DNA of 38,822 nucleotides. Origin: Hyphococcus sp. (GTDB lineage: Bacteria; Pseudomonadota; Alphaproteobacteria; Caulobacterales; Parvularculaceae). Position 1 is the stretch's first letter, and every line of letters begins with the position of its first letter. This document shows positions 16,206 to 27,290 of this stretch, piece after piece. Location: NCBI GenBank assembly GCA_021776295.1, contig JAJFGE010000100.1:1-38822 (forward strand), read 5' to 3'. The notes under the pieces were generated by a model. That model searched no databases and was not told the origin of the DNA. It saw only the letters and a list, made by a program, of their open reading frames with translations. Both the position numbers and the translations under genes were made by a program.

Positions 16206-16238
16206 GCGGCGCATTTCATAGCGAATGCGCCGCTTTTT
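16206..16238 (+). terminator. Rho-independent terminator after the Cys-motif pair
   Basis: A perfect 10-bp stem GCGGCGCATT / AATGCGCCGC (16206-16215 and 16224-16233) has an 8-base loop and is followed by TTTTT. It lies 29 bp after the stop of copy 2. It implies that hisH downstream needs its own promoter or readthrough. Confidence 0.9.
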
Positions 16239-16244
16239 GTAATA

Positions 16245-16394
16245 CCAACGGTCAAAAGGATGACCGTTGGGCGTTCAAGCGCCACGCAGGCTATCGCGCC
16301 AGTGAGGCGGGAACCGCCAAACGCGCGGCGGCCCCAGACACACATAACGGTCGGCCTTGCCAAGGTGAAAATGAGGTACTCATTTTCATCTTGG
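16245..16394 (+). repeat. Structured intergenic repeat, copy 1
   Basis: Hairpin B has perfect 10-bp arms CCAACGGTCA/TGACCGTTGG at 16245-16270. A core follows that shares 41 identical bases (16261-16301) with the minus strand of 27220-27260. A nested GGCGG-GAA-CCGCC hairpin lies at about 16306-16318. The shared GTCGGCCTTGCCAA is at 16350-16363. Hairpin A has a 16-bp stem with one G-T pair at 16360-16394. In the second copy hairpin A has the same shape but different stem bases. It ends 67 bp before hisH. It could be a mobile palindromic element or a structured RNA. Confidence 0.9.
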
Positions 16395-16461
16395 GATTAA
16401 GCGCAAATGACTGGCATCCTGGCGATTGCCCGGACGCCTTGTCTTGTTCTAAAAGCCCGCC

Positions 16462-23659: not shown

Positions 23660-25757
23660 GCCGTGTACTCATAAACGACATGTAGTTGATGTCCGCTTTC
23701 GCGGTATGCCGCATGACCACAAGCCAGCGCGACTACGCGATTTGACGAACGTCTATTAACGCTGAGTTCCTTGGCGTAGTCTCCAATCAACGGATATTTT
23801 CACGCCGGATACAAACAACGGGCATCGCCAGCAGATATGCGCTTCAGCCTTCCTAGAGCATTGGGTTACCTAGTCGGTGGGCTCTGGACAGGCTGGGGCG
23901 GACGCAAGCGAATTGAAGCCAGGCAACGCCGCAATCTGCGGCGTCTCGTGGAAAAGGTGCGGCGCGACTCACCCCTGTTTCGCAGGCTCTACGCGGATCT
24001 GCGGCCATCAAGCGAGATCGAGCTGCGCGACTTGCCGGTGACCCGCAAACCCGATCTCATGAGGGAGTTCGACGACTGGCTGACGATCCGTTCTCTTCCC
24101 CTCGAGAGGGCCCGCGAGCATCTCCGGGATATCCGGAATGTTGGTGTGCCGATCGACGATGTCGCCATTTTCCAGACCTCCGGGACATCAGGCGAACCAG
24201 CGGTCATCGTGCTGCCCTCATCGTTTGTGGAGTATGCCTATGGGATTTTGATGGCGCGCTTCGATCGGCGCCAGTGGAAGCTCGTCCGGGAAATCCGCAA
24301 GCTCGGCGTGAGGGTGACGATCACCGGCGGCAACGGTCATTTTGCTGGTATCGGGTTCAGCAAATTGGTGAAACGGCTGTATCCGTGGCTGGCGAGGAGG
24401 TTCGGGGTGACCTTCATCGAGGCCGAACAGCCGATCGGTCGGCTCGTTGAAAGGCTCAATGCGATCCCGAAGGTCGCCTGGATCATGACCTACCCAAGCA
24501 TGCTGACCATCCTCGTCAAGGAAAAGGAGGCCGGGCGACTGCAGATCGAGCCGGCGCTCTTCAGTTCAGGGGGCGAGACACTCACGGACGATCTTCGCGA
24601 GCGGGTTCGACGGGCCTTCCCCTCGCTGCAATACGGCATTCTTGACCCTTATGGCTGCACCGAGTGCCTGATGCTTTCGTTCGAATGCAGCTGCGGGCGG
24701 AAACATGTGAACGAAGACTGGGTCATCTTCGAAGCGGTCGACGAAGCGATGCGGCCCGTTCCCGATGGCACGATGTCGGCAACCGTGCTGCTGACGGTGC
24801 TCGCCAACGACGTTCAACCCTTTATCCGCTATGATCTCGGTGACTGTGTTCGATACTACAAAGACACCTGCCCCTGTGGGTCGCCGTTTCGCAGTTTTCA
24901 GGTGGAAGGACGCCAGGCGACGCTCGTGCGTGTGGGCGAGGTGACGCTGTCGCCGCTCGTCTTCGATCTGGAGCACGACCATGCCCAGCGCATCCAGCTG
25001 GTCCAGACTGGTGAGAGAGATTTCGAAGTGCGAATACAAGTGGCCAATGAGGCGGCGGCAGGGCTTGTCTTTCAAGAGCTCATCGAGTCGGTGAAACGAG
25101 TGTTTCGCGATAACGGCCTGGACGACGTCGAGGTGCGAGAAAGCGAAAAACTTCCCGGATTCACCGCGAGCGGCAAGTTCCACGAAGTCGTGCCTTTGCA
25201 AAGCGACGACGCACGAAACATGACATTATCGGGCATTCGCCAGCTGGCGACCGAGTGAGGAGATGATCGACAGCACCATAGTCCGCGCCCATCAGCACGC
25301 GAGTTGCATCCAAAATAGCGCTGGCGAAGGCTTTGGACGTTCCCTTGGAGGGCTAACGATTAAAACCCACGCCGTGGTCGATGCGAACGGGCTGCCGCTA
25401 CACGCCGCGATTACCGGTGGTCAGCAGCATGATAGTCTGGCGGCTTGCGCTCTGCTTGAAGGCCTACCGAACGGCGGAATGGTTCTCGCCGACAAGGCTT
25501 ACGAGGCGACCGAAATAAGAACATTCGTGAGTGCATGTGGAGGCTGGGCGAACATCCCACCCCGTCGAAACCGGCGCGATCCTATCTGCTTCAGTCCGTA
25601 TCTCTACCGCCATCGAAATCATGTCGAACGTTTCTTCAACCGGATCAAGCACTGTCGGCGCATCGCAACTCGTTATGAGAAACACGCTGCCAACTTCCTG
25701 GCCTTCGTCAAGCTCGCTGCCATCCGGCTTTGGCTCCGCGTTTATGAGTCCACGTCC
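23659..25757 (+). mobile_element. IS5-family element carrying an AMP-ligase gene
   Basis: The ends are inverted repeats. GGCCGTGTACTCATAAACG at 23659-23677 matches the complement of 25739-25757 at 17 of 19 positions. Both ends abut TA in a CTAG context, fitting the short TA-type target used by IS5-family members. Inside are a PaaK/CapK-like ligase gene and the catalytic C-terminal transposase ORF. The N-terminal transposase ORF normally found at the left is absent. The element is 2,099 bp and sits tail-to-tail between DUF2165 and coq7. Confidence 0.85.
23837..25258 (+). CDS. AMP-dependent ligase, PaaK/CapK-like (coenzyme F390 synthetase-like)
   Basis: This 473-residue adenylate-forming enzyme has the P-loop-like motif TSGTSGEP (114-121), the core YGCTEC and the hinge region FIRYDLGDCVRYY. 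Two Cys clusters, ECSCGRKH and CPCGSPF, look like a zinc site, as seen in PaaK-like relatives. The family activates a carboxylic acid with ATP, usually to a CoA thioester; in CapK-type loci it modifies exopolysaccharide. The substrate is not readable here. Codon use is richer in C/G third positions than its neighbours. It lies wholly inside the IS and ends 4 bp before the transposase ORF, so it is cargo. Confidence 0.85.
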   Translation: MRFSLPRALGYLVGGLWTGWGGRKRIEARQRRNLRRLVEKVRRDSPLFRRLYADLRPSSEIELRDLPVTRKPDLMREFDDWLTIRSLPLERAREHLRDIRNVGVPIDDVAIFQTSGTSGEPAVIVLPSSFVEYAYGILMARFDRRQWKLVREIRKLGVRVTITGGNGHFAGIGFSKLVKRLYPWLARRFGVTFIEAEQPIGRLVERLNAIPKVAWIMTYPSMLTILVKEKEAGRLQIEPALFSSGGETLTDDLRERVRRAFPSLQYGILDPYGCTECLMLSFECSCGRKHVNEDWVIFEAVDEAMRPVPDGTMSATVLLTVLANDVQPFIRYDLGDCVRYYKDTCPCGSPFRSFQVEGRQATLVRVGEVTLSPLVFDLEHDHAQRIQLVQTGERDFEVRIQVANEAAAGLVFQELIESVKRVFRDNGLDDVEVRESEKLPGFTASGKFHEVVPLQSDDARNMTLSGIRQLATE

Positions 25758-25760
25758 TAG
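25263..25760 (+). CDS. IS5-family transposase, catalytic C-terminal ORF (orfB)
   Basis: This 165-residue DDE transposase half begins MIDSTIVRAHQHA, where full-length two-frame IS5 (IS427-group) transposases enter the catalytic domain. The catalytic set D3, D77 (VLADKAY) and E122 (HVERFFNRIKHCRRIATRYEK) is intact. The DUF4096-type N-terminal ORF that normally precedes it is missing and the ligase gene occupies that place. The ATG has GAGGAG just upstream, overlapping the end of the ligase. It extends through the right inverted repeat. Without the N-terminal domain it may not be active alone. Confidence 0.85.
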   Translation: MIDSTIVRAHQHASCIQNSAGEGFGRSLGGLTIKTHAVVDANGLPLHAAITGGQQHDSLAACALLEGLPNGGMVLADKAYEATEIRTFVSACGGWANIPPRRNRRDPICFSPYLYRHRNHVERFFNRIKHCRRIATRYEKHAANFLAFVKLAAIRLWLRVYESTS

Positions 25761-26938: not shown

Positions 26939-26974
26939 CTATAGAGAAATCAATGAATATTGATTTCTCTATAG
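26939..26974. repeat. Perfect 16-bp AT-rich hairpin
   Basis: CTATAGAGAAATCAAT (26939-26954), loop GAAT, ATTGATTTCTCTATAG (26959-26974). The stem has no mismatch. It lies 57 bp upstream of the dsbB start on that gene's 5' side. There is no GC-rich stem or U-tract, so it is not a standard terminator. Its length and shape resemble hairpin A of the structured repeat, but not its sequence. Confidence 0.9.
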
Positions 26975-27040
26975 TTTGTTACAGCTCGCGGCTAATCCTT
27001 GCTGCACCCCGTTACCGAAAAGGGGGGGGCTGCGCGGGCC

Positions 27041-27116
27041 GCGCGCGAAGGCGCGCTCACTATTATTCAACCGCCTTCGCGGTAGCGGCGCATAAGCGCC
27101 GGGGCGCAGTCGCCCC
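27041..27116 (-). repeat. Diverged double-hairpin repeat plus two further hairpins
   Basis: GCGCGC-GAAG-GCGCGC (27041-27056), then an ATTATT-containing spacer, then ACCGC-CTTC-GCGGT (27070-27083). This is the reverse-strand counterpart of the 46-bp repeat at 786-920, with the first stem changed on both sides so pairing is kept. CGGCGC-ATAA-GCGCCG (27086-27101) and GGGGCG-CAGT-CGCCCC (27101-27116) follow directly. Confidence 0.8.
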
Positions 27117-27154: not shown

Positions 27155-27273
27155 TGCCAAAGTACAAAATGAGTTCTTCATTTTGTACTTTGGCAAGGCC
27201 GACTGGCCGCCGCGCCTTATGGCGCGATAGCCTGCGTGGCGCTTGAACGCCCAACGGTCATTTTGACCGTTGG
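27155..27273 (-). repeat. Structured intergenic repeat, copy 2 (inverted)
   Basis: Read on the minus strand, it starts with hairpin B (CCAACGGTCA-AAA-TGACCGTTGG, 27251-27273). It continues with 41 bases identical to 16261-16301. Copy 1's nested insertion is replaced by ATAA within CGCGCC-ATAA-GGCGCG. GTCGGCCTTGCCAA follows. It ends with hairpin A, an 18-bp perfect stem at 27155-27195. The hairpin A stem sequence differs from copy 1 while pairing is preserved. It lies between dsbB and the ExoD gene, 18 bp past the latter's stop. Confidence 0.9.
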
Positions 27274-27290
27274 TGTAAAATATAATCGCG

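Follow-up and report, generated by a model that had tools for sequence, protein, structure and literature searches.

A probably mobile, hairpin-ended DNA repeat with a conserved core in Hyphococcus and other Alphaproteobacteria

The Caulobacter CcrM-associated intergenic repeats (CIR; Chen and Shapiro, 2003) are described in the excerpted texts of PMC2229807 and PMC10969869. According to the excerpt of PMC2229807, CIR are ~110 bp long, lie between genes and are built of two hairpin arms and a linker, with GANTC in one terminal loop; they have TA at their termini, occur across the alphaproteobacteria and are tabled there without terminal inverted repeats. Judged by these descriptions, CIR appear to be the closest in plan to the repeat reported here, which shares with them the length class, the intergenic seat, the two long hairpins with a linker, the TA termini, the presence in several alphaproteobacteria and, in the MnTg02 lineage, a GANTC in the apex of its last hairpin (H3). 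However, both copies studied here are without GANTC, and the repeat has terminal inverted repeats in difference to CIR as tabled in that excerpt. Its two-hairpin core inside the linker, its empty sites and the probable exchange between its copies come from the present analysis. Membership in CIR is not claimed.

MITEs such as RUP, Correia and ERIC, as presented in the excerpt of PMC10969869, resemble the repeat in being smaller than 500 bp and dispersed, in their inverted terminal consensus, in their insertion at A/T-rich spots and in their empty sites. However, the present element is GC-rich, each of its ends is itself a palindrome, it has a conserved core, and no parent IS was found for it around three Y1 genes and one IS5 fragment. 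REP elements and BIMEs moved by RAYT share with it the hairpins at the 3' ends of genes and the tandem clusters, but no Y1 gene was found in three carriers of the present element, the richest among them, and it does not lie beside the Y1 genes that exist. With IS200/IS605-derived PATEs it has in common a hairpin at each end and, in its genus, the lack of a clear target duplication. It is set apart from PATEs by hairpins that reach to the very ends, by the unlikeness of the two hairpins and by the core inside.

Anatomy of the repeat

The window, i.e., the whole stretch of 38,822 nt that was analysed, holds two copies of the repeat (Table 1). The initial annotation, made from the letters alone, had described them as an inverted pair, which was confirmed; the resemblance far exceeds chance, the best match to another copy in the genome having an E-value of 3.4e-37. 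Its block of 41 identical bases is indeed identical but, by an exact repeat search, one base longer, and its bounds hold except for the ends, as the left end lies 2 nt further out in each copy and in copy 1 the right end as well.

Table 1. Coordinates of the two window copies and of adjoining features.
Feature	Position	Strand	Description
Copy 1	16243..16396	+	154 bp; ends TACC...GGGA; H2a and H2b loops long
Copy 1, H1	16245..16270	+	arms CCAACGGTCA / TGACCGTTGG
Copy 1, core	16271..16359	+	GCG TTCAAGCGCC-ACGCA-GGCT, H2a (with an inserted additional hairpin), H2b (lengthened loop), CTTG
Copy 1, H3	16360..16394	+	16 bp; arms 16360-16375/16379-16394; one G-T
Copy 2	27155..27275	-	121 bp; ends CACC...GGCA; loops short
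Copy 2, H1	27251..27273	-	hairpin
Copy 2, core	27196..27250	-	H2a CGCGCC-ATAA-GGCGCG; H2b GGCC-AGTC-GGCC
Copy 2, H3	27155..27195	-	18 bp; arms 27195-27178/27172-27155
Identical inverted block	16260..16301 (+) vs 27220-27261		42 nt; exact repeat search
Terminator-like hairpin with T-run	16206..16238	+	context, outside the element; read by eye

Both copies open with the same hairpin H1 of 10 bp and close with H3, whose arms are unlike in sequence between the copies while the pairing is kept in each, with 16 bp including one G-T against 18 bp; both hairpins had been described correctly. Between them the core runs in the order GCG-TTCAAGCGCC-ACGCA-GGCT-NN, H2a, H2b, TTG and H3, and the core model R2 (see below) matches it at 16274-16361 in copy 1 and at 27192-27247 in copy 2. 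The middle insertion of copy 1, which had been taken for a hairpin, sits in the H2a loop and folds on its own, and the H2b loop is longer too. The 5' arm of H3 in copy 1 resembles that of the copy at the same site in genome G006. A T-run after H3 is found in neither window copy. Copy 1 follows directly after a terminator-like hairpin that stands behind the small upstream gene and is retained in G026 and G007, both of which are without the element at that site.

In the family as a whole, the plan is a terminal inverted consensus, TWATACC / GGT(A/G)TWA, with H1, the conserved core and H3 inside. The core of the family reads TCARNCGCC-arm-GGCT, H2a and H2b with an RGTC loop, often followed by CTTGCC.

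Distribution and insertion sites

Eight copies, the two window copies included, were found in the genome of the window, an assembly of 186 contigs that is 85.5% complete, and model R1 (86 positions, built from 30 sequences) likewise found eight. Of the 28 genomes in the genus, 7 have the repeat at E<=1e-3, the window's own among them (G000, G006, G007, G016, G019, G021 and G026), where G003, with one weak R1 match (E 0.007) in the search of the order, is counted as a non-carrier. With copy 2 as query, 8 of 60 genomes matched at the same threshold, namely the seven of the genus and G050, from the same order and another genus, with a weak and partial match. The richest carrier in the genus is G026 with 17 match rows for this query. 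The initial annotation had proposed a covariance-model search of the genome and its relatives, and had named a lack of further copies or a match to a known Rfam or REP family as outcomes against it; further copies with compensatory changes were found, and neither an Rfam match nor a RAYT/REP partner.

A scan for the core pattern gave 63 stretches in genome contigs, which belong to Marinicaulis MAGs, the alphaproteobacterial MAG M_MetaBat.60, Bacterium MnTg02 and Caenispirillum salinarum AK4, and three in viral contigs. The copies of MnTg02 form head-to-tail arrays with a period of about 130 bp. The first half of the core is unchanged in the copies from Caenispirillum and the viral contigs, and their H1 and H3 differ in sequence and still fold; H3 of L060 is weak.

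Searches of more than 40 genomes with R1 and with R2, a model of the core alone (56 positions, 33 diverse sequences), were run with strict filters and 11-15 candidates scored per genome (138 for the genus g18), and all counts are lower bounds. R1 matched at least 19 of 385 genomes of the class (E<=1e-3) and at least 36 of 299 of the order (E<=0.01); in its matches from other lineages the short core loop ACGCA becomes a long hairpin arm. R2 matched at least 49 of the 385 class genomes, about one in eight, and at least 44 of 277 genera. The anatomy and the covariance models are of use to annotators for a repeat to which Rfam has given no matching model. In a sample of the phylum it matched at least 27 of 398 genomes, 25 inside the class and two outside at 26.5 and 30.8 bits, and its best score against 41 genomes of g18, a genus of the order, was 27.9 bits. 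Plasmid records gave short partial matches and nothing fuller, and phage records gave no match when searched with the long-arm form of the core alone. Rfam reported tRNA alone, both for the window at the gathering score and for 14 loci at relaxed thresholds, where mir-590, at 31.7 bits, stayed below its threshold of 65. In the literature searched, including the excerpts of PMC12306157, PMC10969869 and PMC2229807, no description of the core was recognised.

Among the further loci, a variant of H2a (CCTCGCATAAGCTCGGG or near) with two adjacent pyrimidine mismatches recurs in several families (L150, L153, L141, L357). On a Phyllobacterium plasmid (L217) and a Bosea plasmid (L216) the H2a-H2b halves of the core adjoin tRNA-like sequence, recognised as such by eye.

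At 12 sites with a copy in a single genome, chosen among the one-genome copies and followed by flank searches in six genomes, the core was found in 0 of 48 matching places of near relatives; these places were located by one flank, the core motif was sought within about 295 nt, and at one of the 48 (G011 at the L041 site) the opposite flank is dissimilar. These 12 sites are most simply read as private insertions. G000 and G006 carry the element at the hisH site (TIGR01855), where G019 keeps a remnant and G026, G007 and G011 lack it. Behind a gene of the ExoD family (PF06055) it occurs in G000 and G019; G007 keeps a remnant there, and G026, G006 and G011 lack it. The remnants at both sites show that copies were lost by deletion as well as gained. 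The non-autonomous mobile palindrome proposed initially is supported by the dispersed copies, the empty matching sites, the inverted terminal consensus and the lack of an Rfam match.

In 68 copies from two lineages the left end reads T-W-A-T-ACC and the right end GGT-(A/G)-T-W-A, its mirror image. The copies of G369, G070 and G102 are very similar to each other, and most complete ones end in TACC...GGTA, with TTA, TAA or TCA outside. The 3 bp flanking each end are exactly equal in 21 of 77 copies against 13.3 when shuffled (reached in 13 of 2000 shufflings) and in 12 of 33 for MnTg02 against 7.3 (26 of 2000), counts for which many registers had been tried beforehand (best z 3.7). In the window's genus equality was found in 4 of 38 copies against 4.2 shuffled, so that an exact target duplication is unsupported there, and in five of six copies of G369, G070 and G102, where shuffling also gives 5.0. 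In the MnTg02 arrays TTA or TAA stands between neighbours in L110 and L061 and not in L080 and L091. A 3-bp TNA target duplication is thus a suggestion and not a finding.

Covariation and probable exchange between copies

The alignment A3 holds 150 R1 matches, some weak opposite-strand ones among them, and has 93.0% of its cells paired against 76.2% when shuffled, with 412 double-changed cells against 111.7 shuffled and 50-68 slid. In A4, an alignment of 33 divergent cores, 95.6% of cells are paired against 76.6% shuffled; double changes make up 70 of 495 cells, compared to 20.1 shuffled and 8-23 slid, and wobble pairs 5 of 495. Because of this covariation in A3 and A4 the conservation of structure is real. 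The initial annotation had read paired changes as a sign of selection on structure, and for the covariation itself, which is very strong, this stands; however, Watson-Crick pairs make up nearly the whole total, and G-U is overall just as rare as A-C.

An RNA stem that is kept in one strand tolerates G-U but not A-C. The H1 and H3 hairpins of 93 copies hold 2177 Watson-Crick, 60 GU, 48 AC and 57 other pairs (GU vs AC, p 0.29), with G-T and A-C scored alike and hairpins scoring under 7 left out. By lineage, GU against AC is 1 vs 5 in H1 and 19 vs 16 in H3 for the genus, 10 vs 10 and 26 vs 12 for MnTg02, and 1 vs 0 and 3 vs 5 for the others. The modelled stems of 132 A3 rows hold 63 GU against 74 AC, 24 of the latter at a single H2b pair where the register may differ, and H1 alone 43 against 26. 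As a control, the acceptor stems of 33 tRNAs from the same loci hold 19 GU and 0 AC, as called by ARAGORN, which itself favours GU. Since GU is overall no commoner than AC in the outer hairpins, the paired changes are no argument for RNA. By these near-equal counts, either the palindromes are maintained chiefly at the DNA level or both of their strands are in use. Two subsets, H3 of MnTg02 and H1 of A3, still show a mild bias of the RNA kind. Pairs so dominated by Watson-Crick are what palindrome-preserving or strand-symmetric processes would yield, and not what a one-strand RNA stem would, and templated correction inside a palindrome can yield compensatory changes without selection. Strong covariation without an overall preference of G-U over A-C is therefore, by itself, insufficient for an RNA claim.

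Ten sites are common to two or three of five near relatives, and the copies there (23 copies in 16 orthologous pairs, out of 38 copies in all) were compared between orthologues and within genomes. The flanks are far more alike between orthologues (0.878) than within a genome (0.533), and so is H3 to a lesser degree (0.893 vs 0.812), neither difference being reached in any of 2000 permutations. The core, in contrast, is not bound to the site (0.790 vs 0.818; reached in 1547 of 2000), and H1 hardly is (0.897 vs 0.877; 294 of 2000). It follows from the permutation result for the core that the distinct loop forms found in H2a and H2b, those of copy 1 included, are not site-bound either. Two G000 copies at different sites have one H2b loop in common, which their G006 orthologues are without. 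This suggests conversion between copies through the near-identical core as the simplest cause of cores that are independent of the site.

Position among genes and possible explanations

Neighbouring genes were called with a home-made ORF scorer. In the genus both neighbours were called for 31 of 40 copies, of which 11 lie between convergent, 19 between tandem and one between divergent genes (convergent against divergent, sign test p 0.006). For MnTg02, with both neighbours called for 36 of 45 copies, 24 are convergent, 10 tandem and two divergent; here arrays are counted several times, and by our own count from the list about 17 distinct gaps are convergent against two divergent. Caenispirillum has one convergent and four tandem cases. 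Of the neighbours called in the genus, 23 of 37 at one end of the element and 22 of 34 at the other turn their 3' end towards it; in MnTg02 the counts are 35 of 42 and 30 of 39. Its orientation therefore hardly matters, and many elements start or finish beside a stop codon. Inside a predicted ORF lie 2 of the 40 genus copies and 2 of the 45 MnTg02 copies.

In the viral contigs L122 and L124 the gap between the major capsid gene (PF19821) and the next gene holds the element, immediately after the capsid gene and in its sense, and between these two phage types H1 and H3 show paired changes; the element of L123 is the same as in L122. From connector and tail matches we read these phages as podoviruses. 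The most suggestive sign of a role as RNA comes from these copies behind the capsid gene. Other contigs filed as viral (L286, L307 and L308, which are one contig of the viral collection, and L320) hold tandem arrays of the element with a period of about 108-119 bp and may be host DNA or the edges of proviruses.

The copies are dispersed and patchily present, some are private insertions, relatives occur throughout the class and in phage contigs, the elements sit at gene 3' ends in either orientation, their pairing is nearly strand-symmetric and their cores are not bound to the site. On these observations we consider the element to be, probably, a small mobile DNA repeat that is non-autonomous, of the MITE kind and elaborate in its anatomy. 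An enzyme acting in trans would recognise the folded or palindromic ends together with the core, and insertion would take place at short A/T-rich spots, perhaps TNA. Cores may be swapped by homologous conversion between copies, and the hairpins may be kept perfect by templated repair inside the palindromes or by selection for a foldable substrate, so that paired changes would arise without an RNA function. Copies would persist chiefly at the ends of genes, as those inserted into genes or promoters would be lost. Against a passive MITE speaks the core, which is conserved across families beyond passive need, and against the MITE reading in general that phage contigs hold the copy at one fixed place and in sense orientation. 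Further points against it are that the searches gave no mobilising enzyme, that an exact target duplication is unsupported in the genus, that the 12 empty sites were picked among one-genome copies while deletion also removes copies, and that two subsets have more GU than AC. Tentatively, the element could belong to an ancient, class-wide lineage of mobile structured elements, whose core would be the substrate of an undescribed alphaproteobacterial mobilising system and be recognised either through an RNA intermediate or as single-stranded DNA in its folded form; only complementarity would be read in the outer hairpins, and phages would have adopted the copy at the capsid gene. The mover, if found, would show how ends that are free in sequence but bound in complementarity get recognised.

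A functional structured RNA (a 3' UTR element, attenuator, terminator or sRNA) that acts from one strand and is incidentally mobile would account for the class-wide conservation of the core, for the excess of double changes in A4, for the two subsets with more GU than AC and for the sense copies behind the capsid gene with their paired changes. However, the balance of GU and AC in the outer hairpins compared to the tRNA control, the scarcity of wobble pairs in the divergent cores, the position of both element ends at gene 3' ends and the lack of an Rfam match make it unlikely. A bidirectional terminator or an mRNA-protecting palindrome with a REP-like function, selected at convergent gene ends, would suit the symmetric GU/AC balance, which is compatible with a use of both strands, the excess of convergent over divergent gaps in the genus and in MnTg02 and the many elements that abut a stop codon. 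Such a function is nevertheless improbable for an element whose H3 is without a T-run in both window copies, which in copy 1 lies behind a terminator-like hairpin already present, and which is missing from the same gene neighbourhoods of relatives at the 12 chosen sites. Membership in the CIR of Alphaproteobacteria, with a methylation site in the hairpin apex, is possible but doubtful. The shared plan of ~110 bp, intergenic seat, two arms with a linker and TA termini (excerpt of PMC2229807) argues for it, as does GANTC, which occurs in H3 of 24 of 39 MnTg02 copies (shuffled mean 6.9) and, by eye, in copies of G070, G102 and G066. In the genus, in contrast, GANTC is found in H3 of just 5 of 39 copies (2.0 shuffled) and of neither window copy; of the others, 2 of 11 have it (1.3). 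It was therefore rejected as a defining feature for this genus, and the terminal inverted repeats of the present element are not tabled for CIR in that excerpt.

REP elements moved by RAYT or another Y1 transposase would equally be short, hairpin-ended and mostly intergenic, and within the genus, where Y1_Tnp is found in 6 of 28 genomes, it occurs in four of the seven carriers but in two of the 21 non-carriers. No mobilising enzyme was found, however, when Y1_Tnp and DDE_Tnp_1 were searched in the carriers. Y1_Tnp was not found in G026, the richest carrier, nor in G019 and G021; the six Y1 loci are without an R1 match better than E 0.1, and the RAYT-like genes of G006 and G016 adjoin, by eye, other repeats of a GTAG type. 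A Y1 mover was rejected on these grounds, and this reading is very improbable. DDE_Tnp_1 (E<=1e-5) was found in five of nine carriers tried and not in G019, G026, G021 and G070, and was rejected for this misfit in distribution, where the incomplete assemblies of G019, G026 and G070 make the absence of any enzyme weak evidence. The inspection for a parent IS covered the surroundings of three Y1 genes and of one IS5 fragment. The latter, at 25263-25760 and about 1.4 kb from copy 2, codes for the C-terminal portion of a transposase of the IS5 family (NF033580 positions 93-258; PF01609) and was rejected as a source, as no element-like or clear IS ends were seen nearby.

The window holds other repeats as well. 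Three head-to-tail units of 46 nt (GACCGCGAAGGCGGTC...) lie at 786-923 (within 779-923), and a related copy in inverted orientation follows closely downstream of copy 2, at 27039-27091. At about 26940-26973 stands a long palindrome rich in A/T (TATAGAGAAATCAATATTCATTGATTTCTCTATA), part of which also occurs at the corresponding place in G007.
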